IMG/VR virus record: IMGVR_UViG_3300044535_001837
Span: 1 to 56,497 of that record
DNA length: 56,497 bases
Origin: a virus
Strand: one strand, 5' to 3'
Shown: positions 13,396-26,261 of the stretch, piece after piece
Position numbering within the stretch: the first letter of the stretch is position 1
Layout of the letters: each line of letters starts with the position of its first letter
Notes under the pieces: generated by a model
Database searches by the model: none
The model's input: the letters and a program-made list of their open reading frames with translations, nothing else
Told to the model about the DNA's origin: nothing
Program-made: the position numbers and the translations under genes

Positions 13396-13563
13396 CTATC
13401 TATCTATTTTAATTGTATATTTTTTCCCATATAGTTTTCTTGCATGCTCATTAGCTTCTGAATAAGTTCCTACAAACTCAGAACTATGGTCCCAATCATC
13501 TATATCTTTATTCCACTTGATATAATGATCACCATAAATAAGATATCTACTTCTAGTCTTCAT
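13396..13563 (-). CDS. Small early protein, unknown (55 aa)
   Basis: MKTRSRYLIYGDHYIKWNKD... with HARKLYGKKYTIKIDR. The start makes a 4-base ATGA overlap with the stop of the helicase gene, which supports co-translation. It has alternating Tyr/Ile beta-type sequence around a DIDDWDH turn. No recognised motif. Confidence 0.6.
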   Translation of the reverse strand: MKTRSRYLIYGDHYIKWNKDIDDWDHSSEFVGTYSEANEHARKLYGKKYTIKIDR

Positions 13564-14933
13564 ATCAGATTTTTTTTAAAATGATTAACTGTGTAGTCCT
13601 TCTTCTTTATCACTGTCTTGTATACGTCATGCTCAATTCCTCCCTTACTGAAGACCCAATACACATGATTGAATGATCGCTCTTTAGTTGTCATCCGATC
13701 CCTGCTCTGCCAATAACTAGTAGCACTGAAGTCAATGTTGTAATATACCAAGTACTTGGCTTGCTTAAGACTGATCCCCTCCCTGCCACTAACTATCTGC
13801 AATGCAATGTTCTTATCCGTACTATCAAATATACTAAGCTCAGTAGTAAGCTGATCACCAAACACATCCTTCAGGGCAGACAGCTCTTCCTTAAATTTAT
13901 AGAAGATCCCTATCTTACTTCCTTGAAATTTTTGTTTAATGAACTCAGCCTTGGTTGTGTCAAGCACCATGCTGTTACCACTCTCAAACTTAATAGTCCC
14001 ACTGCATAGTTGATGTACCTTCATCATCAACTTCACCGGTGTATCTGCAAGGATCACTTCATTCTTACCTTCAATTACTAAGTCCTTCTCAAGTTTCTTG
14101 ATTAACTTCATCGTAGATTCCTTCATCTCCACCTCTAGGATCTCCTCAGTAACTGATGATACGAACCCTGCTTCCTTCTGTGAGAAACTAATCATGTATG
14201 GTTTCATCTCATCAAGGATGCTATCCAACCCATTGCTATAGTCATTGATGAATAGACCATTGATGTTCTTCTGCTTCACCTTGACATGTGTATCAGCAAA
14301 CTTGTAGAAGTTAACGAACCGATTGAATGGGTTACTAGGTATGCCATACACCTGATGGTACATCTGCGAATAACTCTCCGGTGTTGGTGTACCTGACATG
14401 AGTATCACCTTTGGTCTATACTTAGAGATAGCGTGTCGGATCATTACAGCCCGATTGCTAGGCTTTGGGAACGCACCTATACTATGAGCCTCATCAATGA
14501 CTATTAGGTCAAATTTGAAGCTGTCTACCACGTTGTGGAGACTCTCATAATTTACAACCTTTATCTGATAACTAGGCTTGAGTAGATCGTAATCATTCTG
14601 TATACTGCTGATGGCTTTCTTCTTGGTTACAAACAGCACAGACTTAGCACCAACATTATCTGCGATCCCTAGGCTAGTCAGGGTCTTCCCTGTACGTACC
14701 TCCATCGCTAGGTACACGAAGCCATACATGTTTATGGCCTGTGCACCCTCAGATATAATCTCCTTTTGATATGGTCTAAACTGCATGCTGTATGTTCCGT
14801 AATGGGAAAGACTATTCTTTATTTTGTTTACTATTTCTGAATCAATATGCTTACTACTTGATACTACATCGTAAAGTATTCCGCAGTACCTAAGCATTTG
14901 CTCATCAGAGTATCCGGGTATTCTCTCAATCAT
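13560..14933 (-). CDS. SNF2-like superfamily 2 DNA helicase/translocase (457 aa)
   Basis: Ordered SF2 motifs are visible: Q-like FRPYQ (52-56), Walker A RTGKT (80-84), DEAH box (147-150), SGTPTP motif III (180-185) and motif VI QSRDRM (from about 409). Spacing and length match the compact SNF2-like helicases found in phage replication regions, which translocate on double-stranded DNA using ATP. An N-terminal 45-residue helical extension precedes the helicase core. The start overlaps the primase-helicase stop by 8 bases, so both are probably expressed together and act on replication or recombination intermediates. Confidence 0.85.
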   Translation of the reverse strand: MIERIPGYSDEQMLRYCGILYDVVSSSKHIDSEIVNKIKNSLSHYGTYSMQFRPYQKEIISEGAQAINMYGFVYLAMEVRTGKTLTSLGIADNVGAKSVLFVTKKKAISSIQNDYDLLKPSYQIKVVNYESLHNVVDSFKFDLIVIDEAHSIGAFPKPSNRAVMIRHAISKYRPKVILMSGTPTPESYSQMYHQVYGIPSNPFNRFVNFYKFADTHVKVKQKNINGLFINDYSNGLDSILDEMKPYMISFSQKEAGFVSSVTEEILEVEMKESTMKLIKKLEKDLVIEGKNEVILADTPVKLMMKVHQLCSGTIKFESGNSMVLDTTKAEFIKQKFQGSKIGIFYKFKEELSALKDVFGDQLTTELSIFDSTDKNIALQIVSGREGISLKQAKYLVYYNIDFSATSYWQSRDRMTTKERSFNHVYWVFSKGGIEHDVYKTVIKKKDYTVNHFKKNLI

Positions 14934-17316
14934 TCGAATGAATTATGATCCATCTACCCAACATATCTCTACCTTCCTCCGGTGCAACACCATACTTGAA
15001 CATGCCATAAGATATCAACCACTTGTAGAACTTAGTCCTACTGATAGTCATCTTAGACTTTGGTCCGTAGTCAGGGTACTCATTGACGAAGTCATTGTAT
15101 AGATCGTTCTTGTACAGCCTTGTCTCCGGCTCAAGCGTATTGTTCTTAGGTTGTCCTTCCACTAGACCGCACCACTCAATGAAGTCATGAGATGTCTCTG
15201 CAGATAGTTGTCTGATCTTAAGGTTGACAAACTTACTTCTCACTAGTCCGGTATGCAGGTAGTTAGATAGGCATGTGATCATGTAGTTATCGAACTCACA
15301 CCAATCGTCATCATTCCAATCACCAAACATCAACTTACCAAACTCATCCAATGGAGTGAATGACTTGGAATAATATTGGTGTAACTCCAACTCCCACTTA
15401 CGTCTTGCGAATGAGTTGCCTGATCCCTTGATTGCGTAGTTAGTTGTGATGGCAATCTTTGGAGACTTGCTGAATGGGATCTTGATCGCATCCTTATTCT
15501 TCTTCTCTAGAGTTAACCCTTCAGTTACCACGCTAAACAAACGCTCGAAGTCGAAGTACTTCTTCACGTCATCGAATACTAGGATCTGAGTGTCCGCAGA
15601 TACTAGTTGATAAGCGAAGCTCCTCTCGAATGTGAATGACTTACCATCGATAGTTACCACCTTCTTCATTTTGCCTAGGGCATTCATGAACAGACCCTTT
15701 CCGGTACCACCCTCAGGGTTATCGCTTATCACCTCGTCATTAAGGATCACTGCCGGACAGAAGCTCAGGTTCTTGTACCCATGTAGAAGGAATCCCATTG
15801 TACTCTCCATAGATTCAACTCTGCTATCATCATTACCGCAGATGTTTCTGATAAACTTCCGATAACTGCATCGATCCGTTACGCTACACATGATGAAGTT
15901 ACGATCGATCACATGGTCCTTCCAAACATATCCACCTAAGTCTAGGTAGTCAATAGGTTTGATCTCAGTCTTGGTTATATGTACTGCACAGTTCTTATAG
16001 TACAGATATGCTGAGTCCTTGGTATCCTCAATGAAGTAGATGTCTATGGTTGATAGCATAGACAGGAACTCCTCCTTGAAGAATCTAGTGTTGTCTGCGA
16101 AGTAGTTGTATACTCCGATGTCATCCAACTCAAGCAGGTGATTTAGTACAAAGTCCTTGATCTCCTTCTCAGATGTATGGTCGATCAGGTTGTTTGTTAC
16201 CTTGACGAACACGTAGTTCTTTCCACCCTCAGGGCAGTACTTATAGAACCCACTATCCTCAAGGAACTGCTTAAACTGAATGTGGATTATTTTTATAACT
16301 CCCTTATCACTCTTGTTCCAAAATGTTTTCTTCGCATTCTCCTCCTCCACTTTCGAAAGAACTGCTTCGATGGTATCGGAATCCAAGTGGGAGTCTTGTA
16401 GTTGGATCCGGATCTCTTTTTTTGATACGCCTCTTCTTAGTTTTGCTTTGATCTGATTGACCCTTTCCTCATCCTCGTAGTACTTGGTACCGAAGTTAGA
16501 AGTATTCTGATAGGCAGAGTCAATGGTCCTTTGGATCTCCCTGATCGAGAAGTCTTCATTGGCATATTGATTCAATACATATCCGGCTAGACTCTTGTTG
16601 ATGCCGAAGTCATTGAACGCCATCGCTAGGATGTACACGTTATGATTACGCTGACCTTCAACCATAGGATACTTCTTGGTCCACCATTTAACAAGGATCT
16701 CTACGATCTTATTCTCGTCAGTAATCGGGATGGTAGGTTGGTCCTTGAACTTGCTTACCTCTGTGTACTCAGGCTCTTCAAGGATATCCCATACAGATGA
16801 GTTCTCATTCACATGAATCAATGGATCATAAGACTCGTAGCATACACGTGATACGTTCTTGCTAGTCTTATCAAAGTATGGACTATTGAAGTGCTTCTCT
16901 AGGCTGTTGAAATAGTTGATGTGGTTGTCTACATCTGCAGGTATTTTAACCAATACCTTTAGCCCATTCCCTGAAGGGGATATGAATACAGAGTAGACAT
17001 ACTTATTCTTAGATAGGTTCTCCTTGTCCTGAAGCAACTCCTTCTGCTTCTGATATCCATCGAAGTCTAGGCACATCAAACCGCTGTGATCTAGGAGTGA
17101 TGCATCGGATCTCTTTGTGAATGTGCCACTAAAACAAATGGCAGGAAGTAATTTCTTTAATTCATTTCGCTCAGGCTTACGCTTCTCAGCTCTGATCTTT
17201 TTGACCAAGTCCTTTGAAGCACCGGATCTAATTCTGTCAAGGATCACCCCTACATTCCTGTGGAATGGAGTGCTAGTCTCTTTAATGTTTTGAAATATTG
17301 TAATCTGATATGTCAT
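14926..17316 (-). CDS. Primase-helicase: BT4734/VirE-N primase-like domain plus SF3-type helicase (796 aa)
   Basis: Residues about 10-185 carry the BT4734-like N-terminal domain found in Bacteroidota mobile elements: CFSGTFTKRSD, LMCLDFDGY (acidic pair), SPSGNGLKVLVKI and RVCYESYDP. This fold belongs to the archaeo-eukaryotic primase group. About 205-285 resembles a primase C-terminal helical module (QRNHNVYILAMAFNDFG). From about 530 comes an SF3-like ATPase: Walker A NPEGGTGKG, Walker B ILVFDD, then KIAITTNYAI as sensor. It would prime and unwind at the phage origin. It lies alone behind a 193-base spacer carrying an AT-rich repeat, and its start ATG at 17316 is the first in frame. Confidence 0.85.
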   Translation of the reverse strand: MTYQITIFQNIKETSTPFHRNVGVILDRIRSGASKDLVKKIRAEKRKPERNELKKLLPAICFSGTFTKRSDASLLDHSGLMCLDFDGYQKQKELLQDKENLSKNKYVYSVFISPSGNGLKVLVKIPADVDNHINYFNSLEKHFNSPYFDKTSKNVSRVCYESYDPLIHVNENSSVWDILEEPEYTEVSKFKDQPTIPITDENKIVEILVKWWTKKYPMVEGQRNHNVYILAMAFNDFGINKSLAGYVLNQYANEDFSIREIQRTIDSAYQNTSNFGTKYYEDEERVNQIKAKLRRGVSKKEIRIQLQDSHLDSDTIEAVLSKVEEENAKKTFWNKSDKGVIKIIHIQFKQFLEDSGFYKYCPEGGKNYVFVKVTNNLIDHTSEKEIKDFVLNHLLELDDIGVYNYFADNTRFFKEEFLSMLSTIDIYFIEDTKDSAYLYYKNCAVHITKTEIKPIDYLDLGGYVWKDHVIDRNFIMCSVTDRCSYRKFIRNICGNDDSRVESMESTMGFLLHGYKNLSFCPAVILNDEVISDNPEGGTGKGLFMNALGKMKKVVTIDGKSFTFERSFAYQLVSADTQILVFDDVKKYFDFERLFSVVTEGLTLEKKNKDAIKIPFSKSPKIAITTNYAIKGSGNSFARRKWELELHQYYSKSFTPLDEFGKLMFGDWNDDDWCEFDNYMITCLSNYLHTGLVRSKFVNLKIRQLSAETSHDFIEWCGLVEGQPKNNTLEPETRLYKNDLYNDFVNEYPDYGPKSKMTISRTKFYKWLISYGMFKYGVAPEEGRDMLGRWIIIHSND

Positions 17317-17339
17317 AAATGCTAATTTGATTCCGTATT

Positions 17340-17452
17340 TGTGTCGAGTAAGTTGCTGATAATCAGATCGATGTCGATTATGTCAATTTAAAAACTAAAA
17401 TGAAATAGAAAATAAATAATAATATATATAAGTATATATATAGTATAAGGGA
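17340..17452. repeat. AT-rich ~110 bp intergenic repeat, copy A
   Basis: This fills most of the 193-base gap between the primase-helicase gene and the SSB-like gene. It contains GTAAGTTGCTGATAATCA (17348-17365), then a GATTATGTC block, then a run of AT steps (17408-17447) ending TATAAGGG. A closely similar block of almost the same length lies at 26101-26212 in the same + orientation. The 18-base upstream motif recurs at 25422-25439. The low-melting tract next to the initiator gene is the kind of sequence used as a DNA unwinding element. Confidence 0.65.
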
Positions 17453-17477
17453 AAACTAAAACGTCATAGTCTAGTGG

Positions 17478-17504
17478 AAAAAAGAGGGGGAATTTAACCC
17501 CCTC
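17478..17504 (-). terminator. Intrinsic terminator after SSB-like gene
   Basis: On the minus strand, GAGGGGG pairs with CCCCCTC (17504-17498 and 17490-17484) around a 7-base loop and is followed by six T residues. It lies 6 bases beyond the stop of the SSB-like gene and would end the early transcript before the primase-helicase unit. Confidence 0.85.
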
Positions 17505-17509
17505 ATATT

Positions 17510-17779
17510 TTAGAAAGGCATATCGTCTGTGTCCTCTACCGGTTGTTCTACCGGCTGTTCACCTTTCTTTTGTGGATCATAAGTATCTAGTGCAACATAA
17601 AGTCCTCCGGATCTACCTCTCTTTACTTCTAGGTTTAACCATCCATCCTTCTCGTGCTTCTTGATAAACTCTAATGCTTCACTAACCTTTAAGGATAGTT
17701 TGGTGATCAAGAAATTTTGAGCATCATCTCTTCTTCTAGCGATGAATCCATCTGCGAAAATTGTTTGTTTGTCTTGCAT
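17510..17779 (-). CDS. SSB-like small DNA-binding protein with acidic DDMPF tip (89 aa)
   Basis: The C-terminus EDTDDMPF copies the acidic tip by which bacterial SSB proteins recruit partners. A Pro/Glu-rich linker (EQPVEQPVE) precedes it. The N-terminal 65 residues (FADGFIARRRDDAQNFLITKLSLKVSEALEFIKKH, in part, then DGWLNLEVKRGRSGGLYVAL) resemble small beta-type phage proteins of this length and are much shorter than E. coli SSB. It stands directly downstream of exonuclease and annealing-protein genes, where phage SSBs usually sit. The single-strand-binding role is inferred from the tail and context. Confidence 0.65.
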   Translation of the reverse strand: MQDKQTIFADGFIARRRDDAQNFLITKLSLKVSEALEFIKKHEKDGWLNLEVKRGRSGGLYVALDTYDPQKKGEQPVEQPVEDTDDMPF

Positions 17780-17780
17780 G

Positions 17781-18515
17781 TTAATAAAGGGTTTCGTTTA
17801 TAAAATAGTTTTCAATATCCTCAGTCTTGTTAGGACCAAAGAACTTATGGTACACCTCCATCGCTCGTTCTACCTTTGCTTCACCACCTTTGATGAACTC
17901 CTCTGATGGTCTGAACAACCCTAGTTGTTGGGTTTCCTTGTCAATAACGTAGAAATAAAGAGGCTTTCCAAATAGTTGTTGGTAAATGTAGCACTGAGAG
18001 TCGTAGTTGTAGGACTTGGCAGACCATCTGAACTTGTTGATGTCAGATGTAGTCTTAAGATCTATTAGGAAATCCGAAGATACTATATCTGCCTTGGCTT
18101 TCCAATCCAATCCCTTGATCTTTCCAATGATAGGCTCTTCGTAAATGTTGCCATCCTTGTAGATGTCATCATAGAAAAGTATGTTGGACTTCATTACCCC
18201 TACTAGATCATGAATCTCATTGTACTCCTTAGTCAACAAGGCGAATGAAAGTCCGGTGTCCTCCAAGAACTTCTTATACTCCTTTGTATTACGAGTACTA
18301 ACATCCACGTGTGGTACATTCACCGCCTTCTCAGGCTCTAGAATTAGTTGATGGAATAGTCTACCCTCATGGAAGTGCTTGGAATCCTCTGATCGTGATC
18401 TAAATAACTTAGGGTTAGTAAGCAAGGAATAGATGTCAGAGTTGGAAAGGTAGTACTTACCCTTACCATTGTAGTACTCTTCATCGTCTCTTAGTTCTTC
18501 GATTATTGATTGCAT
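17781..18515 (-). CDS. RecB-like PD-(D/E)XK exonuclease, DUF3799-type (244 aa)
   Basis: Visible core: SNSDIYSLLTNP and GRLFHQLILEP near the N-terminus, then GLDWKAKADIVSSDFLIDLKTTSDI (Asp, then Asp-Leu-Lys) and YDSQCYIYQ (Gln-Tyr) in the second half. This is the arrangement of RecB-family and DUF3799 phage exonucleases. Such enzymes chew one strand of duplex ends to expose single strands for a partner annealing protein. The Sak-type gene overlaps it by 13 bases upstream and the SSB-like gene follows by one base, forming a three-gene recombination cassette. Confidence 0.75.
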   Translation of the reverse strand: MQSIIEELRDDEEYYNGKGKYYLSNSDIYSLLTNPKLFRSRSEDSKHFHEGRLFHQLILEPEKAVNVPHVDVSTRNTKEYKKFLEDTGLSFALLTKEYNEIHDLVGVMKSNILFYDDIYKDGNIYEEPIIGKIKGLDWKAKADIVSSDFLIDLKTTSDINKFRWSAKSYNYDSQCYIYQQLFGKPLYFYVIDKETQQLGLFRPSEEFIKGGEAKVERAMEVYHKFFGPNKTEDIENYFINETLY

Positions 18516-19150
18516 AGAGTAGATAGTTCTTTTTTAAGTTCACTTGAGATTTTGTACTTAACACCTAGTCTATTTACAAGAGCATCAATACCCTGTGCTT
18601 TGTTAGACTGCACAAAGTTCACAACCTTTTCCCACTCCGGAGTATCCTTCTTCAATTCAATTAAAGAATCTTTCTTCAAAGGCTCCGGCTTTGGTGTTGG
18701 TTCTGACTCCGGAAGATCCTCTCCGGCATAGATGTAGATACCCAATCCAAACATGGCTAGGTTCTTTACCAAGCATCGCATCATTGTCTTGTTGATGTCG
18801 AATGTTGTGGCTGCAGATACGGTCTTTTCTACCTCTACCTTTCTTCCGTTCTCCCACTTTGTACCCTTGTAGGTATAAGATTGCTTCTTCATGCTTTTGT
18901 TAGCACCATCCATTACCGGCAACCACATCTCCAAGGTCTGACCCTCGATGGTTACTTCGCTATGGCACATGAATCCAAGGTCATCATCGTATTCTGTAGG
19001 CAGAATCTTATAAGATGCATCCGGACATTCCTTCTTAGTTACAGACCATGCCCATGCCCATGATAGGTAGGTTAGGTTGTCCTTCTTTTCAACGTGATCA
19101 TTTACATTGATCGCTGATAGTCTTTCGAATACTGATTTTTTTGCTGTCAT
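18503..19150 (-). CDS. Single-strand annealing protein, Sak/DUF1071 family (215 aa)
   Basis: Residues about 8-130 match the DUF1071 pattern: INVNDHVEKKDNLTYLSWAWAW, a HSEVTIEGQTLEMWLPVMDG strand pair, and DINKTMMRCLVKNLAMFGLG. This is the Rad52/Sak-like annealing fold used for phage recombination. A Pro/Lys-rich linker (PTPKPEPLKK) leads to a C-terminal helical tail. It is coupled to the exonuclease gene and acts with it to repair and recombine phage DNA. Confidence 0.8.
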   Translation of the reverse strand: MTAKKSVFERLSAINVNDHVEKKDNLTYLSWAWAWSVTKKECPDASYKILPTEYDDDLGFMCHSEVTIEGQTLEMWLPVMDGANKSMKKQSYTYKGTKWENGRKVEVEKTVSAATTFDINKTMMRCLVKNLAMFGLGIYIYAGEDLPESEPTPKPEPLKKDSLIELKKDTPEWEKVVNFVQSNKAQGIDALVNRLGVKYKISSELKKELSTLCNQ

Positions 19151-19437
19151 TTTTCTAGGTTTTTAATTAGTTGTTTGTAATCGGGATCTGTATTTAATTT
19201 ATGTTCAATCATTTTTATGCCATGGATAATTGACGAATGTCCTATCGAATATCCATTGGCCTCCATGTACATCTGTATATACCCTACAGATATGTTCCTC
19301 TGAAAGCATAGGTAGTATAGCATGTGTCTAGCATCAACTACTTCTCTCTTTTTATTCTTTGAAAAGATCCAATCCCTTGGGATCGAATAGAGATTTATAA
19401 TGTTGTTTAAGTACTTGTTGAAGAATTCAATTTTCAT
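19147..19437 (-). CDS. Stand-alone DnaA domain IV (origin-binding helix-turn-helix) protein (96 aa)
   Basis: The whole protein corresponds to the C-terminal DNA-binding domain of the bacterial initiator DnaA: VVDARHMLYYLC (34-44), the helix NISVGYIQMYM, then GYSIGHSSIIHGIKMIEHKL (63-81, in place of DHSTVLHA..KI), ending TDPDYKQLI. Full-length DnaA is about 450-470 residues with an AAA+ ATPase, which is entirely absent here. The 20-residue N-terminal extension is hydrophobic and helical. It overlaps the annealing-protein start by 4 bases. It could recognise DnaA boxes in phage or host DNA, recruiting or blocking host DnaA. Confidence 0.8.
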   Translation of the reverse strand: MKIEFFNKYLNNIINLYSIPRDWIFSKNKKREVVDARHMLYYLCFQRNISVGYIQMYMEANGYSIGHSSIIHGIKMIEHKLNTDPDYKQLIKNLEK

Positions 19438-19440
19438 TTT

Positions 19441-19632
19441 TTAAATGTTGCTAATTAGTAGAATGTAAACTAGGAATAGTGTAATCATTACACCGAAACT
19501 GATCATGTCAATAATGATCTTCTGTTTGCTAGATGCATCATCATATTTTCTACCGAATACTAATTCGGTAATCAGAATATTGACTGCCACCACTAGGAAA
19601 GCAATGACAATCATGGCTATGAAATCACTCAT
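19441..19632 (-). CDS. Small two-span membrane protein (63 aa)
   Basis: Two hydrophobic segments (about 4-24 and 43-62) flank a polar loop GRKYDDASSKQK. It is coupled by ATGA to the next upstream gene. It is in the early block, far from the lysis genes, so an early membrane function such as superinfection exclusion or host-membrane modification is more likely than a holin, but this is a guess. Confidence 0.6.
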   Translation of the reverse strand: MSDFIAMIVIAFLVVAVNILITELVFGRKYDDASSKQKIIIDMISFGVMITLFLVYILLISNI

Positions 19633-19904
19633 AACCTTCTGATGATCTCTTCAATTATTGCAGATTCAATATCTGATGTTGGCACACAATCTACAGGCAT
19701 GCCACTCTCCCTATCCGCCTTTGCTAGTTGGATGGTACCTAGTATGTTGATAGTGGTCTCACTATCACCCATGTATTCCCAATCGGATTCCTCTCCGGAG
19801 GTAACAACCTCGTAACTTCCGATCCAAAAATAGTCTTCGTCATCAATGCTGAATTCAAGTTCCTCATTGATAAAGACTTCGCTGTCGCTGAATTCTTTTC
19901 CCAT
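19629..19904 (-). CDS. Acidic early protein, unknown (91 aa)
   Basis: Very acidic first half (SDSEVFINEELEFSIDDEDYFWIG), beta-type, followed by a helical C-terminus (ESAIIEEIIRRL). Strong negative charge would suit a nucleic-acid mimic or an inhibitor, but there is no recognised motif. A near-consensus TATATTG sits a short distance upstream on the minus strand. Confidence 0.6.
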   Translation of the reverse strand: MGKEFSDSEVFINEELEFSIDDEDYFWIGSYEVVTSGEESDWEYMGDSETTINILGTIQLAKADRESGMPVDCVPTSDIESAIIEEIIRRL

Positions 19905-19952
19905 TAGATTTGATTTAAATTTGATACAATATAAGACAAATAATAAACAATA

Positions 19953-20099
19953 TCAATCTTTTTTTGCAAAAACTCTTCGTCTATTTAACCAATGATGTTC
20001 ATTGCAGATCCGGTCTATGGCCTCCCACTTTGTGGTGCACATTATCCTTGCGTACAAACTACCGCAGTAGTATACATTAAACATTCGCTTCGCTTCCAT
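19953..20099 (-). CDS. Small early protein (48 aa)
   Basis: MEAKRMFNVYYCGSLYARIMC... with KWEAIDRICNEHHWLNRRRVF. The pattern of a beta strand pair followed by EAIDR recurs in tiny phage early proteins. It overlaps the upstream gene by 23 bases, or 8 if the start is Met6 (20084). Function unknown. Confidence 0.55.
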   Translation of the reverse strand: MEAKRMFNVYYCGSLYARIMCTTKWEAIDRICNEHHWLNRRRVFAKKD

Positions 20100-20271
20100 G
20101 ACTTAACTTTGCTTCGGATCCATACCTTACTTCCCTAGGGCATGGATAAACCTTGAATAAAGTATCAATTGCTTTTACAAACTTCTCCTTGCTTTTGTCA
20201 TCTAGGTATAGCAGTCTGTCATTAATTCCATGTACCAATCTGTACATTTCTATTCTTCCTTCTAGTGTCAT
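20077..20271 (-). CDS. Small early protein (64 aa)
   Basis: MTLEGRIEMYRLVHGINDRL..., a helical and basic protein. The C-terminus contains a short repeat (RYGSEAKLSHGSEANV). It is ATGA-coupled to the 136-residue gene upstream. No recognised family. Confidence 0.55.
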   Translation of the reverse strand: MTLEGRIEMYRLVHGINDRLLYLDDKSKEKFVKAIDTLFKVYPCPREVRYGSEAKLSHGSEANV

Positions 20272-20678
20272 TTCAGTTTATCTTTTACAAATTCAATAAT
20301 AGTATCAACCCAATCCCCATTCCATTCCCTTCCGGCATAGGTATTCTCAAACTCGTTGGTAAAGTCTATGCCTAATGCGTATAGTCCACCCATACCTTCA
20401 GTATCTATTACATTTTCTAGTCTAGATGTCATAGTATCATTGTTGATCATGGCATGGATCGTGCATACGATCTCGTGGTGGGTCTCTGCCCAATCTCTGA
20501 ACCCATTTTTCAGTACGCCTTTTGACTTCTTGGATGCTAACTGATCTAGTATGTTTGATACTAGCGTATACTCTAATTGAGTTACATTCTGTGGCAGATA
20601 CAACGCATCTGTCACCGCTTGGTAGGTGTGATCAAGATCAATTTCCTCCGGTACATTTACTTCGATTGTAATTTTCAT
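20268..20678 (-). CDS. Early protein, unknown (136 aa)
   Basis: Opens with a beta strand MKITIEVNVPEEIDLDHTYQ and continues helical (NVTQLEYTLVSNILDQLA). It contains FRDWAETHHEIVCTIHAMINN and ends DTIIEFVKDKLK. One of the larger members of the early block. Overlaps both neighbours by 4 bases. No function assigned. Confidence 0.6.
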   Translation of the reverse strand: MKITIEVNVPEEIDLDHTYQAVTDALYLPQNVTQLEYTLVSNILDQLASKKSKGVLKNGFRDWAETHHEIVCTIHAMINNDTMTSRLENVIDTEGMGGLYALGIDFTNEFENTYAGREWNGDWVDTIIEFVKDKLK

Positions 20679-20896
20679 AGTTGAATTGTTATGGTGTCAC
20701 TTAAATTTGATTTTATAGTTCTGCTTGGATATGCATCTTCCAATGCAAGTAGGTAGTCCTCTATGGAATAATTCATTTCATCTGCCTCGATCGCCATTGG
20801 ACCGACCACCTTTTTAATTTGTTCTTCGGATAGGGTGGTGTACAAAGTACATTGATCCCCATCCCATGTCCCGATCTTTAATTTAAATACATTCAT
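20675..20896 (-). CDS. Early protein, paralogue of 21887-22108 (73 aa)
   Basis: Shares with the 73-residue protein at 21887-22108 a strand ending in a Trp motif (GTWDGDQ versus TAWEEED), the core LSEEQIKKVVGP versus LTEDQIIGVMKP, and an acidic Y...D....LE.AY segment. The pair evidently arose by duplication within the early block. Function unknown. Confidence 0.6.
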   Translation of the reverse strand: MNVFKLKIGTWDGDQCTLYTTLSEEQIKKVVGPMAIEADEMNYSIEDYLLALEDAYPSRTIKSNLSDTITIQL

Positions 20897-21336
20897 CTTC
20901 CGTGATTTTTTCCTTGTAAATCTTTCTTACTTACTATTAAATTGATGTTGTCTACCTCTCGCTTATGTTTTTGCTTTGTATTTGAAAGTGCATCTTGTAA
21001 TGATTTATTGAGGGGTATTTTTTTAGTCTTGTACCACTTGATTAATTTTAATATCTCTTGATAAGACATCTCATTATATTTATTTTTAATATCCCCAAAC
21101 AAAATATCTTTCCAATGTGGTAATTTACTTGGCTTATCTATTTCAATAAAGTTTGGATATTTATCTTGTAAAATTTCAAGTACCTCTTGATTAAATGATA
21201 TCTTCTCTTGTTCGTAGTAAGTCCTAAGAACCATGAATGGCTTATCATTAATCAACTTTTCAATCGTCCAATTAGGATCGCTATAAAAGAACGCCTTACT
21301 CTTTAGCGTTAATATCCTTAGTCTAGTAATGTCCAT
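20893..21336 (-). CDS. Basic helical early protein, unknown (147 aa)
   Basis: Contains KLPHWKDILFGDIKNKYNEM and several Lys-rich helices, ending KKDLQGKNHGR. The net positive charge suggests nucleic-acid contact. Overlaps its neighbours by 4 and 14 bases. No recognised domain. Confidence 0.55.
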   Translation of the reverse strand: MDITRLRILTLKSKAFFYSDPNWTIEKLINDKPFMVLRTYYEQEKISFNQEVLEILQDKYPNFIEIDKPSKLPHWKDILFGDIKNKYNEMSYQEILKLIKWYKTKKIPLNKSLQDALSNTKQKHKREVDNINLIVSKKDLQGKNHGR

Positions 21337-21484
21337 CGCTTTCTATTAAGTTTGAGAAAGTAGCAACAATAAACTGCTCGTAGGTTATTAGCCTATCTTT
21401 TTTGGGGATACTTTTGTATGCTTTCTTTAGATCCTTTTCGAACCTAGTAACGAATTCATACATCATTTGCATTTCCTTCTCCAT
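21323..21484 (-). CDS. Small helical early protein (53 aa)
   Basis: MEKEMQMMYEFVTRFEKDLK... with IPKKDRLITYEQFIVATFSNL. The frame fills the gap between the two flanking early genes, overlapping them by 14 and 22 bases. Internal Met5, Met7 or Met8 would shorten the upstream overlap. Confidence 0.55.
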   Translation of the reverse strand: MEKEMQMMYEFVTRFEKDLKKAYKSIPKKDRLITYEQFIVATFSNLIESDGHY

Positions 21485-21678
21485 TCCTGTACAATTTTAG
21501 TCGCTTCGAATAATGCATCTGCAGATTCACCCATACCCATGTCCTCATTGGCCATGATCCATTGGTAGATATCATCTACCAACATCTGATCTTGATCCTC
21601 ACGGATCTCCTTGAGTCGCTTCACTTCGCTCCTTAGGAAATCATTTTCTAGTCCTTCAATTGATAGTCCCATATTCAT
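21463..21678 (-). CDS. Acidic helical early protein (71 aa)
   Basis: Almost wholly helical (LENDFLRSEVKRLKEIREDQ, VDDIYQWIMANEDMG), ending ATKIVQEWRRKCK. ATGA-coupled to the upstream gene. Function unknown. Confidence 0.6.
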   Translation of the reverse strand: MNMGLSIEGLENDFLRSEVKRLKEIREDQDQMLVDDIYQWIMANEDMGMGESADALFEATKIVQEWRRKCK

Positions 21679-21887
21679 TTATTGATCATGAATTCGTTCT
21701 TAATAACAGGAAACTTCTTTAGGTCATCCTTGGTCACCAACCCCATGATTAAATAAACTTCGGGGTTACGTGTAGTTCTAGCCTTGAACTCATTGGTGTT
21801 AAGCAATTCGTTCCACTCATTTGCAATTTCAATTGCATCCGGTTCTTTGCCTACGTAGTAGGTCTGTACTTCGATAGTTCTTTCCAT
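21675..21887 (-). CDS. Early protein, unknown (70 aa)
   Basis: Beta-strand opening RTIEVQTYYVGKEPDAIEIA, a helix, then a second strand NPEVYLIMGLVTKDDLKKF, suggesting a compact alpha/beta fold. Overlaps its downstream neighbour by 4 bases and meets the upstream stop by one base. Confidence 0.6.
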   Translation of the reverse strand: MERTIEVQTYYVGKEPDAIEIANEWNELLNTNEFKARTTRNPEVYLIMGLVTKDDLKKFPVIKNEFMINK

Positions 21888-22108
21888 TAGATTATAATTT
21901 TTGAGGGTATTACTTCTATGATCTGATTATTTTGGTATACATATTCAAGTTCGTCAACTAGATCAGCATTGGTGTAATCTTCGTCCAAGTCACGCTTACG
22001 TTCCACAAATGGCTTCATTACTCCAATTATCTGATCCTCTGTTAAGTCAGTTAGGATTATAAAATCCTCCTCCTCCCATGCAGTGGTGTTTATTCTGTAT
22101 GCTTTCAT
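21887..22108 (-). CDS. Early protein, paralogue of 20675-20896 (73 aa)
   Basis: Same length and core as the 20675 gene: a beta strand with a Trp-acidic turn, LTDLTEDQIIGVMKPF, and the acidic helix NADLVDELEYVYQ. The two copies are separated by four unrelated small genes, so they are not a simple tandem. Confidence 0.6.
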   Translation of the reverse strand: MKAYRINTTAWEEEDFIILTDLTEDQIIGVMKPFVERKRDLDEDYTNADLVDELEYVYQNNQIIEVIPSKIII

Positions 22109-22113
22109 GATCT

Positions 22114-22398
22114 TTATTCTGCATAAGACATGTCATATCCTAACTCCTTTAACTTATCGATGATCGATGTAAGCAAGGAATATACCCCATCGTAATCGAC
22201 TAATTTATTCCCTTCAAACCATAGTCCGCCCTCCGCATACCAATCATCCCCTCCGGTCTCTATGTCATAAAGTTCAAAGTATCCATAGTCATCATCCACA
22301 TTTATGGTGATATGTAGTACAACATTATCCTCGTCTTTAATTATCCCAAAACTATTTTCAAGGGCCAAATTTTCTGTTACTTCGAATTCAATTTTCAT
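22114..22398 (-). CDS. Conserved acidic phage protein (94 aa)
   Basis: The start at 22398 (MKIEFEVTENLALENSFG) is preferred over an upstream ATG at 22434, which would overlap the previous gene by 32 bases. The segment DDDYGYFELYDIETGGDDWY, then AEGGLWFEGNKLVDYDGV, is a recognisable signature of a small beta-rich family in phages. Function unknown. Confidence 0.65.
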   Translation of the reverse strand: MKIEFEVTENLALENSFGIIKDEDNVVLHITINVDDDYGYFELYDIETGGDDWYAEGGLWFEGNKLVDYDGVYSLLTSIIDKLKELGYDMSYAE

Positions 22399-22402
22399 GT
22401 TA

Positions 22403-22669
22403 TTAGTTATTAGATAGGTTATTAAATGCATCATTAAATGGCTCGAATCCTTCCACTAGATCCATAAGATTTCTAGTGGCAAGCAGTAGGATAATTTTGT
22501 AGTCCACAGTACTATGGATCATTTCACTTATTCTACTTACCTTTTGTTCCCCTCTATCCATTGAGATAGTTAGGACCGCTGCTAACTGCGAAGCATATTC
22601 ATGTTGACTCACGTCCAATGCCCCCACTAGGGACTCCGCATCATGGTTAAATTTCATTTTATCTTTCAT
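22403..22669 (-). CDS. Helical early protein (88 aa)
   Basis: MKDKMKFNHDAESLVGALDV..., helical with LAAVLTISMDRGEQKVSRIS. It resembles no family I know. Follows its upstream neighbour with an 11-base overlap. Unknown function. Confidence 0.55.
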   Translation of the reverse strand: MKDKMKFNHDAESLVGALDVSQHEYASQLAAVLTISMDRGEQKVSRISEMIHSTVDYKIILLLATRNLMDLVEGFEPFNDAFNNLSNN

Positions 22670-23033
22670 GTCTCTTTATTTTTAGTACTCTATATGCGAA
22701 AAATCCGTATTTATTATCCAATTCAATATAGTTTGAATCTTGATCTGCTATCCTAGTTACTTCAAGTACTTCACCCCTTCTAGGTGGATCCCCCACTAGG
22801 GACACGTCATCTAGGACCACTACCAAGTCCCCAATTTGTATGTGATTTCCATCTGAATCTAAAGCATGGAGAGTAGATTCCAATGATTCTGTGATGTCTA
22901 AAATATCACCATCATCCGACCATTTTTCTAGTATTATCCGGAGGATTTCCACATCATCGAATAGTCTAGAAATATTATTAAAGTTTTTAATGACATCAAT
23001 TGAATGTCCGTTTCTATTATCTAATTGTATCAT
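22659..23033 (-). CDS. Early protein with SH3-like beta domain (124 aa)
   Basis: The start at 23033 (MIQLDNRNGHSIDVI) follows the upstream stop at 23038 closely; a longer frame to 23120 would run 83 bases into that gene. The C-terminal half (IQIGDLVVVLDDVSLVG, RRGEVLEVTRIAD, YGFFAYRVLKI) has the strand pattern of a KOW/SH3-like barrel. Function unknown. Confidence 0.6.
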   Translation of the reverse strand: MIQLDNRNGHSIDVIKNFNNISRLFDDVEILRIILEKWSDDGDILDITESLESTLHALDSDGNHIQIGDLVVVLDDVSLVGDPPRRGEVLEVTRIADQDSNYIELDNKYGFFAYRVLKIKRHER

Positions 23034-23037
23034 GATT

Positions 23038-23250
23038 TTATTTTGTTTTTTCAATTGCTTTTGATATTTCTTTTTGAATTTTAATAGGTAATCCGGCAAC
23101 ACAATGCCACATATGTCCATGTCTTAATTTAAATCCATCATTTACAATATCTACCAATGTAGTATAGTGATATACAATATCTAATGGTTCTACAGGGCAC
23201 TCATTTTTAAAGTCCCAAATGATGTAATCTTGTTTGCTAATATTTTTCAT
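23038..23250 (-). CDS. Small early protein (70 aa)
   Basis: MKNISKQDYIIWDFKNECPV... with a central GFKLRHGHMWHCVAGLPIKI region rich in His and Cys. No recognised motif. Spacing to both neighbours is a few bases. Confidence 0.55.
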   Translation of the reverse strand: MKNISKQDYIIWDFKNECPVEPLDIVYHYTTLVDIVNDGFKLRHGHMWHCVAGLPIKIQKEISKAIEKTK

Positions 23251-23251
23251 G

Positions 23252-23485
23252 TTATTTTTTCATTTGTTGTATAAACATTCCGGTTATCTTATCCTCTAAG
23301 GTGTAATCATTTGTGTCCGTATCTTTAGATAGATCCCCGATCACCTTGGTACCTATTACTTTTACCCGATCTTGATTTCGATCCATAAATCTTAGCCAAT
23401 TTTCTAGATGCTTATCATCTTTAAAATCCCTAGTTTGTGCGAAGGATCCGCCGTAGATCCCTCGCATGTATATGACCGCCTTCAT
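23252..23485 (-). CDS. Small early protein (77 aa)
   Basis: MKAVIYMRGIYGGSFAQTRD... with WLRFMDRNQDRVKVIGTKVI. An alpha/beta protein of unknown role. It ends two bases before the next gene. Confidence 0.55.
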   Translation of the reverse strand: MKAVIYMRGIYGGSFAQTRDFKDDKHLENWLRFMDRNQDRVKVIGTKVIGDLSKDTDTNDYTLEDKITGMFIQQMKK

Positions 23486-23487
23486 TT

Positions 23488-23661
23488 TTAGTATGGCAAA
23501 ATATCAAAAATGTAATCCGGTTCTAGTCCGTAGTCCCATAGCAGTTCCTCCGGATCCGCACCTTCTAGGACCTCCGACCGCATGTCTTGAATGATCTCAA
23601 TCGCTTCGCTTTTGTCATGGCCTTGGTTAATCAAGGCCCTAAATAAATCTAGTTTTTCCAT
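23488..23661 (-). CDS. Small acidic protein of the LEPDYIFD type (57 aa)
   Basis: MEKLDLFRALINQGHDKSEA... followed by VLEGADPEELLWDYGLEPDY. The tail GxDPEELLxxYGLEPDYIFDIL is a signature I recognise from small phage proteins. It fills the space between two flanking genes exactly, with gaps of 2 and 4 bases. Confidence 0.65.
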   Translation of the reverse strand: MEKLDLFRALINQGHDKSEAIEIIQDMRSEVLEGADPEELLWDYGLEPDYIFDILPY

Positions 23662-23665
23662 GGTT

Positions 23666-23875
23666 TTATTTTATATATATGTAGGATCTTTTTTCGTTAA
23701 ATATTTTACTTAAACTTTTTACCTCTTTTTCAAAATCAAAATTCTGAATACATTCCCACGAAAATTCCTCTATCCGGCTGGAATTATCTTTGTAAAATTT
23801 TAGCCTATTTTTTTTGGCTTTTGTATGGCCCTTAATGGCCTTAATTTTTTCGAGTACGTACGTAGTTTTTTCCAT
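23666..23875 (-). CDS. Basic early protein (69 aa)
   Basis: Lys-rich and helical (KIKAIKGHTKAKKNRLKFYK), ending SKIFNEKRSYIYIK. It lies just downstream of a palindromic terminator-like element and may be transcribed by read-through. Function unknown. Confidence 0.5.
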   Translation of the reverse strand: MEKTTYVLEKIKAIKGHTKAKKNRLKFYKDNSSRIEEFSWECIQNFDFEKEVKSLSKIFNEKRSYIYIK

Positions 23876-23894
23876 AGTTTTTTAAAGTTTTAAA

Positions 23895-23921
23895 GATCCC
23901 TCCGGATATCCGGAGGGGATC
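23895..23921 (-). terminator. Near-perfect palindrome, probable terminator of the Gp88-family gene
   Basis: The core CCTCCGGATATCCGGAGG (23899-23916) is an exact 18-base palindrome, extended to GATCC...GGATC arms with one bulged base. It begins 6 bases after the stop of the leftward gene at 23927. The T-tract that follows on the minus strand is weak (ATCTTTAAAAC), so termination may be partial, or the site could bind a dimeric protein. Confidence 0.55.
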
Positions 23922-23926
23922 CGGTT

Positions 23927-24553
23927 TTAGTGTATCAATAAGCCTATCTTATTATTTTCAGTGACCCATTTGGTCGCATTTAGATCCAAATAACTTGAAT
24001 CAAAATAACCTTCCAAGGTCATTTGGTCCATGCTTTTAAAGATCTTTGAATGACGTTCCTTACTTTGGTCGATCAATTCGTCATTTTTCGAACCTAGGCT
24101 AAAAATTAGGTCGAAATTATCCGGCAAAATATATTTACCCCTAATAAATGAATGGCTTTTGGTGTAGGCATAAAACCGGACCGCCGGATTATTTTCGGCG
24201 ATCTTTACCCATTTTTCAAAGTAGGCCGGCGAATAAAAATCACCGGAGTCATGGATCCGGACGTAAATTTGTTTTTTACTTTTTACCTTCGAAAGTTCGT
24301 CGGTAATTAGGTCGACGAAATTATCTTTTTTGCTAGCCTCATATCGATCACTCAAAGCACGTTCCACGTTCCCAAATCGATACATGCCTTTTTTAGCATA
24401 GCAAAGGGATAAACATGATCCGGCAAAAGGGCACGTAATTTTTCCGGTCCTTTTGTCATTACCGGCAGGAATTGAAAAATTGAAAATAGTCACGCCAAAT
24501 TCGGCCGCCGTTTTTTTAAGTTTGGTGTTACCCGATCCCAATAAATTTTTCAT
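23927..24553 (-). CDS. Gp88-family phage protein (208 aa)
   Basis: Two hallmark blocks are present: a Cys cluster CPFAGSCLSLCYAKKG (about 41-56) and RIHDSGDFYS followed by YFEKWVKIAENNP and FYAYTKS. These define the mycobacteriophage-type 'gene product 88' family, whose biochemical role is not established; the conserved Cys, His and Asp suggest metal binding. Length is slightly below the usual 220-250 residues. Codons are richer in CCG/CGG than in late genes. It is followed by a palindromic terminator-like site. Confidence 0.75.
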   Translation of the reverse strand: MKNLLGSGNTKLKKTAAEFGVTIFNFSIPAGNDKRTGKITCPFAGSCLSLCYAKKGMYRFGNVERALSDRYEASKKDNFVDLITDELSKVKSKKQIYVRIHDSGDFYSPAYFEKWVKIAENNPAVRFYAYTKSHSFIRGKYILPDNFDLIFSLGSKNDELIDQSKERHSKIFKSMDQMTLEGYFDSSYLDLNATKWVTENNKIGLLIH

Positions 24554-24590
24554 GGTTTTTTTTGTTTAAGATTTAAATTAATTTAATTGA

Positions 24591-24632
24591 TCCGGCAAGG
24601 GGATTCGAACCCCTTTTTTATCCAATGCCGGA
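24591..24632 (-). ncRNA. tRNA-like minihelix (acceptor stem plus T-arm only)
   Basis: Read leftward: TCCGGCA (24632-24626), an 11-base TTGGATAAAAA linker, AGGGG-TTCGAAT-CCCCT, then TGCCGGA (24597-24591). The 7-bp acceptor and 5-bp T-stem are perfect and the T-loop is the canonical TTCGAAT, but the D-arm and anticodon arm are absent, so it cannot be a decoding tRNA. On the plus strand the outer stem is followed by a T-run, so the same DNA could act as a terminator in that direction. It lies between two leftward genes and would be part of their transcript, where RNase P or RNase Z might recognise it. Confidence 0.6.
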
Positions 24633-24639
24633 TTTTTTT

Positions 24640-24732
24640 TTACTTCATTAAATGAAGGCCAAACATGTACCCCAAGATAAAAATGGGACTTAAGGCGATA
24701 ATGGTCCAAATAAATAAAATTAGTTTTTTCAT
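24640..24732 (-). CDS. Single-span membrane micropeptide (30 aa)
   Basis: MKKLILFIWTIIALSPIFIL... is a Lys-anchored hydrophobic helix with a short tail ending HLMK. A second tiny membrane peptide follows upstream in the operon. Coding status rests on the intact frame, amphiphilic composition and the fit between neighbours. Confidence 0.45.
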   Translation of the reverse strand: MKKLILFIWTIIALSPIFILGYMFGLHLMK

Positions 24733-24737
24733 GGTTT

Positions 24738-24845
24738 TTAAAAGATAGTTTTTTCTAATTCAAGGCCAAAAAAATGGCCAATTGTTATAATTACGGCCAT
24801 TATCAAAATGGCTATAATTGTTGATTTTATTTCGTCCTTTTTCAT
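24738..24845 (-). CDS. Single-span membrane micropeptide (35 aa)
   Basis: MKKDEIKSTIIAILIMAVII... then TIGHFFGLELEKTIF. A charged N-terminus is followed by one transmembrane helix. Its architecture is like the adjacent 30-residue peptide, including a shared GH/GL-type end after the helix, suggesting a pair of related early membrane peptides. Confidence 0.45.
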   Translation of the reverse strand: MKKDEIKSTIIAILIMAVIITIGHFFGLELEKTIF

Positions 24846-24846
24846 T

Positions 24847-25011
24847 TTAGTATTTTTTTAGTATTTCAAAAGTTCCGTTCCCATGTACAAAGATTTTTAC
24901 CTTTGTCGGTTTGAATCCAAATTTTTCTTCTTTTGTGATCCAAATAATGTAGGGGATCCCGTCCCCGTACATTAAATCCGCACATGCCTGATAAATAGTT
25001 TTGAATCTCAT
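24847..25011 (-). CDS. Small early protein (54 aa)
   Basis: MRFKTIYQACADLMYGDGIP... with a beta-rich remainder (PYIIWITKEEKFGFKP, KVKIFVHGNGTFEILKKY). It is ATGA-coupled (25008-25011) to the first gene of the leftward operon. Unknown function. Confidence 0.55.
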   Translation of the reverse strand: MRFKTIYQACADLMYGDGIPYIIWITKEEKFGFKPTKVKIFVHGNGTFEILKKY

Positions 25012-25319
25012 TTTAGTGATTTTTTAAATGATTTTAAGATAATATTTAAAGTATAGTTTAAATGCTTTGCACAAAATTCGTCACCGCCTATAGATTTCTT
25101 ATTCATATTATAACGCTCCTTAGTTTCAAAATATGAATACTTTAAATAAACATCATCCGCCGGCCGAATAGTAACGAATTGATTTTTTACTTCAATCGGT
25201 TTTATTTGTACGTAATACGGCCACGTTCCGCCGGCATACGTTACAGGTGTATGGTCCAATTCATTTACTTGGTTGATCATGGAATTAATTAGGTCGATTT
25301 TTTTGAGTAGTGCTTTCAT
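25008..25319 (-). CDS. First gene of the leftward early operon, unknown (103 aa)
   Basis: A helix (LLKKIDLINSMINQVNELD), an aromatic strand region (YAGGTWPYYVQIKPIEV), then a basic helical end. It starts about 31 bases downstream of a good minus-strand promoter, so it should be among the first proteins made. First-expressed phage genes often modify the host, but no family is recognised. Confidence 0.6.
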   Translation of the reverse strand: MKALLKKIDLINSMINQVNELDHTPVTYAGGTWPYYVQIKPIEVKNQFVTIRPADDVYLKYSYFETKERYNMNKKSIGGDEFCAKHLNYTLNIILKSFKKSLK

Positions 25320-25349
25320 GTGTTTTTTTTGTTAGCGTTTAAATCTTTA

Positions 25350-25380
25350 CAAATATGGTTTAAATCTTTATTAAAACAAA
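25350..25380 (-). promoter_or_regulatory. Leftward early promoter
   Basis: On the minus strand TTTG (25380-25377) is followed by exactly 19 bases and CATATTTG (25357-25350), one mismatch from TAnnTTTG. Spacing is ideal for the Bacteroidota primary sigma factor. It lies about 31 bases upstream of the first leftward gene and is one of the two best promoter matches in the window. Confidence 0.65.
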
Positions 25381-25421
25381 TAGTTAAAAAGATTTTTTTA
25401 ATATATTTTTTTATAAAACGT

Positions 25422-25439
25422 GTAACGTGCTGATAATCA
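25422..25439. repeat. Short repeat copy C in the divergent control region
   Basis: GTAACGTGCTGATAATCA matches copy A (17348-17365) at 16 of 18 positions and copy B (26107-26124) more loosely. The AT-rich half of copies A and B is replaced here by a shorter run of T and A tracts. It lies 65-83 bases upstream of the leftward early promoter and may be a protein-binding site. Confidence 0.5.
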
Positions 25440-25539
25440 AAAAGATAGTTTTAAATAATATTTAAAATTTATTTATTGATCTTTTTTTCGTGGGGATTTT
25501 ATCCCCTACTTAAGATCATTTAACTAGTTTTTTTATTGA

Positions 25540-25760
25540 TCATTGCGAAGGAAGGAAGGAGGGCGAAGGAAGGAAGGAAGGAGGGCCGGCGATCCATGGG
25601 CCGGCGGGCCGGGCCCTAGGGGATCCGATCCAATGCGGGCCGGCATGCATGTAGGTAGGTCCCTAGCAAAAAGCCAAAAAATCAGAGGAAGGCCGGAGGA
25701 CCCGACCCCCACCCCCATCAAAAATAAACGGTTTTCGTTTCCGGCCGGCAACGCAAAACG
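25540..25760. other. G+C-rich palindromic island in the divergent intergenic region
   Basis: The 490-base gap between the divergent transcription units (25320-25808) holds a T-rich left part and this starkly different right part. It contains purine-only repeats of GGAAGGAAGGAGGGC type (25550-25585), four GGCCGGC motifs, and nested palindromes such as GGGCCC, CCTAGG, GGATCC, GCATGC and ATGCAT. Both strands are open in places but no protein-like sequence appears. It could be an origin, a packaging signal or a protein-loading site. Confidence 0.5.
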
Positions 25761-25797
25761 TACTATATAACCCAACTACTCTTATCATCTAAATAGT

Positions 25798-25805
25798 TAT
25801 ATTTG
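25798..25805 (+). promoter_or_regulatory. Rightward -7 element at first rightward gene
   Basis: TATATTTG is an exact TAnnTTTG match, but lies only three bases before the ATG at 25809. Transcription from it would begin at or just inside the start codon, giving a leaderless message or serving a later start (Met at 25866). No -33 box is evident. Confidence 0.4.
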
Positions 25806-25808
25806 TGC

Positions 25809-26006
25809 ATGTACGATGGACTAACAATTAAGAATGGTCGTTTGGTAAATGATCGTCCTAACGGTATGACAGGTATTCAAGAGGCTCTTGATATTAAGAA
25901 GACCTTGAAGAAAGCGAAGAAGCTTGAGATGTATTCTGAAGCTGTTTCAGTCGGTATCCAAAAAGCAGAGAATGTCGAAAAATTAAAGGAGATGTTCTTC
26001 AAGTAA
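25809..26006 (+). CDS. Small helical protein, first rightward gene (65 aa)
   Basis: MYDGLTIKNGRLVNDRPNGM... then a Lys-rich helical part (ALDIKKTLKKAKKLEMYSEA, NVEKLKEMFFK). The ATG at 25809 is preferred to a TTG two codons earlier. It is transcribed alone: an exact promoter element precedes it and a strong terminator follows. Function unknown; as an isolated early rightward gene it may be regulatory. Confidence 0.55.
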   Translation: MYDGLTIKNGRLVNDRPNGMTGIQEALDIKKTLKKAKKLEMYSEAVSVGIQKAENVEKLKEMFFK

Positions 26007-26028
26007 TAGCTTTTGGGTTTATTTGAGA

Positions 26029-26057
26029 AGAGGGATTTTATGGTCCCTCTTTTTTTA
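26029..26057 (+). terminator. Intrinsic terminator
   Basis: AGAGGGA (26029-26035) pairs with TCCCTCT (26044-26050) around an 8-base loop, followed by seven T residues. It ends the single-gene transcript at 25809-26006. Confidence 0.85.
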
Positions 26058-26100
26058 TTATTGACTATGCTAAAAATCTGACATAGCATGTACGTTTTTA

Positions 26101-26212
26101 TGTCGTGTAACTAATTGATTTTCAATCTACTGATAGATTATGTCGATTTTCAACCTAAGTTCTAGTCAGAAATAAATAATATATATAATAATATATATAT
26201 ATATATATAGGG
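26101..26212. repeat. AT-rich ~110 bp intergenic repeat, copy B
   Basis: It starts TGTCGTGTAACTAATTGATT, contains GATTATGTCGATTTT, then AGAAATAAATAAT and a (TA)n run (26178-26209) ending TATAGGG. It aligns along its full length with copy A at 17340-17452 in the same + orientation. It fills the gap between a terminator and the next promoter. The gene to its right is rightward, whereas copy A precedes a leftward gene, so the element is oriented independently of transcription. Confidence 0.65.
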
Positions 26213-26253
26213 AAGGAAAGCTTTGACATGGAATTGATGTTCCATTTTTTCAT

Positions 26254-26261
26254 TATCTTTG
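26254..26261 (+). promoter_or_regulatory. Promoter -7 element for the 96-residue gene
   Basis: TATCTTTG matches TAnnTTTG, 26 bases before the ATG at 26288. A TTGA at 26234-26237 lies at a plausible -33 distance. Confidence 0.55.

Follow-up and report, generated by a model that had tools for sequence, protein, structure and literature searches.

The IMG/VR virus record IMGVR_UViG_3300044535_001837, analysed here over its whole length of 56,497 nucleotides (the window), carries two similar AT-rich elements, one upstream of a primase-helicase gene (copy A) and one on the groEL side (copy B), which raises the question of what these paired elements do. An initial annotation had proposed that they are phage origin or unwinding elements. 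Our comparison, which spans over a hundred relatives, supports this reading, as the pair is conserved, combines an unstable AT tract with phased iterons, and falls into iteron classes that covary with the winged-helix end of the primase. Judged from sequence, we put the probability at roughly three in four that A and B are iteron-type origins and that the adjacent primase-helicase reads the iterons by its C-terminal winged helix.

The repeats reported in the initial annotation are homologous. In a self-search of the window, A (17334-17443) and B (26093-26210) aligned with 72.7% identity over 121 columns (E 8e-7), and a profile of copy-A regions only, built from the upstream-of-primase regions of 69 relatives and the window, picked up B with an E-value of 3.5e-18 and had no other match in the window. 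Because an A-only profile detects B at this level, the pair is not ordinary AT-rich noise. Both copies have the same + strand orientation, as first described. The blocks originally drawn are real, with borders that were too narrow: the iterons of A begin at 17311, and B extends over 26079-26228.

Absence from related phages had been named as an outcome that would speak against an origin. Instead, the pair was kept in all 22 whole genomes compared (20 from IMG/VR, the window, and MW202828, the phage-collection record nearest to the window at 80%), each with exactly two elements on one strand: A adjoins the start of the primase gene, and B lies at a distance of 8.7-13.6 kb on the side of groEL. 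Among 80 primase relatives first taken, copy A was present in 70/70 with at least 150 bp of upstream sequence. In a tree of the copies, which has low resolution, A grouped mostly with A and B with B (exceptions are A_G017, B_G022, and both MW202828 copies), and the duplication is therefore probably old. A second set of relatives contained A at 60 loci and lacked it at 22, mainly in one clade around L171. A B-type element was present in this clade wherever the groEL side was read (G031-G035, L171, L185, L187, L189, L199). In the five longer A-less records it was the sole matching cluster, bar stray hits in G032 and G034, in a scan for at least four iterons that misses many true copies, gives stray hits, and was applied only to this clade. 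Since the A-less clade retains B, B is the more constant element, and A was either lost from the L171 clade or never present there; primase expression in this clade hence does not require A.

Read on the + strand, the element consists of direct TGTC(G/A) iterons, a TAACTnATTGATTATTAA block, paired iterons at a 9-nt spacing, then an AT tract, and finally inverted iterons, the last being usual, not universal, among relatives. Forward iterons number 4.0 per 110 bp in A and 3.0 in B versus 0.19 expected per strand (about 20-fold and 15-fold), and their spacings, mostly 9, 11, 20, 30, 41, 51, and 82 nt, are near whole helical turns. Iteron sets lie on both sides of the AT-rich region in B of most relatives; the right-hand set is degenerate in A of the window. 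The central block matches the reversed consensus of integration host factor (IHF) with at most one mismatch in 20/22 A and 22/22 B copies versus 10.5% of AT-rich background 60-mers, although the copies are homologous, so that these matches represent conservation and not 44 independent cases. Even in relatives with about 46% primase identity, in which the neighbouring words are different, the block can still be made out. As the block persists while these words change, it is probably the site of a conserved protein, likely one of the host.

Of duplex stability and GC skew, both suggested by the initial annotation as checks, only the former was informative. The AT tracts are extreme: that of A ranks first or second among the least stable 50-mers of the genome in 21/22 genomes, and that of B is among the five least stable in 16/22. 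Cumulative GC skew, in turn, was rejected as an origin locator, because it tracks gene direction and the chosen start.

The iteron word varies among relatives (TGTCGA, TGACGA, or TGTTGA), with the rest of the element unchanged. All three words occur in the A-less clade, where the layout is kept and the class of nine genomes was assigned by eye, and TGTTGA is also found in several branches that carry A as well as B. The two copies belong to the same class in 37 of 38 classified genomes (31 C/C, 6 T/T; naive Fisher 2.5e-6), and at least ten changes of class occur on a tree built from primase residues 1-700. Between L171 and L185, whose B elements are near-identical otherwise, all seven B iterons change at the same base, from TGTCGAA to TGACGAA. 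Their primases are 96% identical, and 19 of the 31 amino-acid differences fall within residues 715-791 (hypergeometric 4e-13), with 117 silent and 12 replacing codon changes before residue 715 and 29 silent and 19 replacing changes after it. The C-terminus evolves fast in general, and the proper control is thus same-class pairs at equal N-terminal distance. At N-terminal distances below 3%, the maximum C-terminal difference of such pairs is 10.4%, versus 19.8% for L171 and L185; the C-terminal difference of L170 and L247 likewise lies above all 132 same-class pairs in their bin. A scan in 40-residue windows placed the largest excess of different-class pairs at 761-796 (+0.067) and 721-760 (+0.042), followed by 81-120 (+0.035). 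These patterns suggest that the iteron words and the reading part of the primase change together, which makes the putative matching rule directly testable.

Profile searches of the primase-helicase returned BT4734-like_N (E 2.3e-17), DUF5906, and, weakly, PriCT_1, and no TOPRIM family was matched in the family profile scan. When modelled alone with AlphaFold2 (AF2), the C-terminal domain adopts a winged-helix topology at a predicted local distance difference test (pLDDT) score of 83.4. A long helix in this model, residues 760-775 in window numbering, carries the positions corresponding to residues 757, 764, 765, 768, and 769 of L171, which are among those changed. The structural matches of the model are generic winged helices, among which the P4 origin-binding domain 1ka8 (Z 5.1, 3.1 Å, 71 residues) is tied with others. 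Foldseek alone gave nothing at E 0.001 or better for the model, with winged-helix proteins near the top at weak scores, and a primase profile search against PDB sequences gave spurious matches only.

Table 1. Features of the two elements and of the proposed initiator gene in the window
Feature	Position	Strand	Basis or remark
Copy A, iteron/central block/AT-tract element upstream of primase gene	17306-17470	+	Profile match 17306-17505, E 4.5e-32
Iterons of A	TGTCA 17311-17315, TGTCG 17342-17346, TGTCG 17372-17376, TGTCA 17381-17385	+	Sequence
Central block of A, TAAGTTGCTGATAATCA	17349-17365	+	IHF-like YAANNNNTTGATW, one mismatch
AT tract of A, proposed unwinding element	17409-17448	+	Second least stable 50-mer of window
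Hairpin and T-run (GAGGGGG..CCCCCTC), read as terminator of leftward gene 17510-17779	17478-17504	-	Read from sequence
Copy B, second element, groEL side	26079-26228	+	Profile match 26093-26229, E 3.5e-18
Direct iterons of B, TGTCG	26101-26105, 26141-26145	+	Sequence
Inverted iterons of B, TGACA	26079-26083, 26224-26228		Sequence
Central block of B, TAACTAATTGATTTTCA	26108-26124	+	Perfect IHF-like consensus
AT tract of B, 40 bp without G or C	26170-26209	+	Least stable 50-mer of window
Bacteroidetes-type promoter for rightward genes, TATCTTTG -7 box at 26254	26232-26261	+	Outside core of B
Primase-helicase, proposed initiator (BT4734-like AEP, PriCT_1, SF3-like helicase, winged helix)	14926-17316	-	Pfam and PHROGs matches; SF3-like motifs in alignment
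C-terminal domain, residues 690-796, proposed iteron reader	14929-15249	-	AF2 model; covariation with iteron class

In the mechanism that we propose, the primase-helicase encoded beside A would bind the short phased iterons via its C-terminal winged helix, the central block would probably be bent by a host HU/IHF-type protein, and the AT tract next to the iterons would melt. An SF3-type helicase ring might then load at the melted tract, the archaeo-eukaryotic primase (AEP) domain would prime synthesis, and extension would fall to a host DNA polymerase, as the genes examined included no recognisable phage polymerase. Both copies may fire.

Several observations weigh against an origin function of this kind. 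The window has just four short iterons per copy. The genomes compared are related and provide only two strictly independent pairs of A/B agreement, the T/T cases represent three clades, and L168 is discordant, its B being mixed. In the primase, AEP and SF3 were assigned by family profiles and motifs, PriCT_1 falls just under the Pfam cut-off, and the AF2 model of the full-length protein is unusable (pLDDT 41.7). The general fast evolution of the C-terminus counts here as well, and L188/L189 are not clearly above same-class pairs. Finally, gene direction confounds GC skew, and when skew is taken on the coding strand at fourfold sites, the segments show only weak differences.

An alternative, in our view unlikely, is that the iterons serve as operators and that neither copy fires as an origin. 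Transcription of the primase operon (at A) and of the rightward operon (at B) would then be controlled by the phage protein that binds them, be it the primase-helicase or another regulator. Both copies are flanked by a terminator on one side and a gene on the other, and plasmid iteron initiators often autoregulate. A may moreover contain the primase promoter, as no host-type promoter was found from the terminator, which is predicted to shield A from upstream transcription, to the primase start. For the same reason, A may have an added regulatory role in primase autoregulation even if it is an origin. Against operators, the genes next to the copies run in opposite directions, yet both copies are on the same strand. 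The initial annotation had already taken this orientation to make a simple promoter unlikely, an argument that is incomplete, because leftward transcription from B is conceivable; a better one is the sister clade, which manages without A at its primase. In addition, the host-type promoter at B is outside the core of the element, genes can intervene between B and groEL (L255), and the AT tracts are extreme genome-wide.

It is also improbable that the iterons are read by some other protein, of phage or host, and that the association with the C-terminal part of the primase reflects recombination hitchhiking. This explanation draws on the fast-evolving C-terminus, on the small number of independent pairs, and on several small genes in which L171 and L185 also differ (unaligned gaps). 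It does not sit well with the position of the L171 changes in the predicted recognition helix, nor with the comparison to L187, to which both have an equal N-terminal distance of 14.1%: the C-terminal difference is 24.0% for L185/L187, both TGACGA, versus 33.3% for L171/L187. P4 alpha and PLE RepA, furthermore, bind origin repeats by their own DNA-binding domains (PMC4234260, PMC8263062).

The TATATATAGGG ends are very improbably promoters of a phage RNA polymerase used in a T7-like fashion. TATA-steps followed by AGGG do end both copies and many relatives, but no RNA polymerase family was matched among the proteins scanned, including a giant protein of 2389 aa, a promoter in A would run antisense into leftward genes, and the primase-tied switching of iterons would be left unexplained. 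Recombination or packaging sites, for which direct repeats about 9 kb apart might be taken, can be practically dismissed, because the window copies differ by about 27% and cluster mostly A with A and B with B, thus are not being homogenised, and because their iteron/AT architecture is to our knowledge unlike att or pac sites.

A third copy, which the initial annotation had placed at 25422 on the basis of a recurring 18-base motif, did not hold up. The exact 18-mer occurs only there, with deviations at 2/18 positions in A and 5/18 in B, and the locus has the central block alone, lacks iterons, and is not detected by the profile. G001 has a perfect match to the motif at the corresponding site and G012 one with a single mismatch, with weaker matches nearby in a few others. 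This motif (25422-25439), which lies near the leftward early promoter and is kept in nearest relatives only, could be the site of a separate regulator.

Further features were observed left of B. A GC-rich island at 25540-25740, some 520 bp from B, reaches about 68% in 120 bp versus about 37% in the window, and this stretch is the genome GC maximum in about 12/22 genomes. Its sequence differs sharply between phages and has simple-repeat-like words, the following segment AAAAGCCAAAAAATC .. GACCCCCACCCCC recurs, and four-base palindromes are enriched in the island of the window. A perfect hairpin word, GTGTCTTTGAAGACAC or GTGTCTTCAAAGACAC, stands just before the island, a few hundred bp left of B, in several genomes (G003, G005, G010, G014, G020, G022; L093-L096, L101-L103, L115-L118, L127-L130, L137-L140, L149-L152), and words like it occur near terminators elsewhere. 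Between island and B lies a small rightward open reading frame (ORF; 25803-26006, 67 aa as listed), and most relatives examined have an ORF of similar size ending about 50-130 nt before B. A candidate tRNA-like sequence appears directly beside B in L353, L354, and L355, the groEL-side regions of the phages of L249, L250, and L259. In the window, no tRNA genes were found and an Rfam scan returned nothing.

The genome is podovirus-like and encodes a terminase, a portal, virion structural proteins, and recombination functions besides the primase-helicase. Leftward early-type genes occupy the stretch between 25.3 and 10.7 kb, and rightward genes start at 25.8 kb. Among cultured phages, those of the genus Elemovirus, which infect Flavobacterium, are the nearest relatives; identity to elemoF is 41% for the primase, 35% for groEL, 45% for the terminase, and 47% for the portal, in a similar layout. 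We take the window phage to be a podovirus related to Elemovirus. No A/B-type element was found in Elemovirus elemoF, and megablast of the region against phage records gave zero matches.

Iteron origins and initiator-origin covariation are already known elsewhere. The twin arrangement in this phage group appears undescribed, as the literature searched, a part of the whole, contained no description of origins in Elemovirus-like phages. The P4 genome has two cis sites, ori and a second cis region, crr, and its iteron words differ from those found here; in our case both sites carry the full iteron and AT anatomy, in a phage of roughly 60 kb. Titles cited in PMC6092414 mention two P4 replicons. 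P4 alpha resembles the present primase-helicase in uniting helicase and primase in one protein with a C-terminal winged helix, which in P4 binds the origin repeats (PMC4234260) and here would do so, but its primase is of the TOPRIM type (PMC4234260) and not a BT4734-like AEP. BT4734-like proteins constitute an AEP family, and C-terminal winged helices have been suggested to recognise origins in AEP proteins (PMC5862659).

In Gram-negative phage-inducible chromosomal islands (PICI), the origin has an AT-rich region with a set of iterons on either side (PMC6092414), a likeness shared by the elements described here. The PICI pri-rep-ori module, however, belongs to a satellite with one origin described, whereas here there are mostly two, one of them remote from the primase, in what is no PICI-type satellite but a phage with virion genes of its own. 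In PLE, a Vibrio cholerae satellite, the DNA-binding domain of RepA covaries with the origin, switching is inferred to have occurred more than once, and swaps show matching (PMC8263062). Repeated switching of an initiator's DNA-binding part with its origin would be common to both systems, but PLE employs a RepA_N initiator and iterons of about 30 bp, in contrast to 5-8 bp words putatively read by the winged helix of a primase-helicase and at least ten class changes on the primase tree here. The same order of AEP, SF3, and winged helix is found in the replication proteins pRN1 ORF904 and BIP-1, and a stem-loop 3' of the gene has been proposed as assembly site for such proteins (PMC4234260). Here, by contrast, the iterons lie 5' of the gene, and the next gene (13560-14933) overlaps the primase 3' end and leaves no intergenic space for a stem-loop there; stem-loops elsewhere were not looked for.

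As for why the words switch, we tentatively suggest antagonistic selection on words and winged helix, for example by origin-directed nucleases or initiator-hijacking satellites, under which twin origins would have to switch together. Antagonism of this kind is known for PLE against ICP1. Were this correct, the phage group would be a natural library of matched initiator-origin codes. If A and B are indeed origins, they would locate the replication starts of a widespread and mostly uncultured phage group with presumed Bacteroidetes hosts and supply an iteron-reading initiator of the AEP-SF3-winged-helix type, for which stem-loops had been proposed. With many natural combinations of word and domain, the recognition code would be testable with short DNA probes, and origins could be recognised in other genomes.

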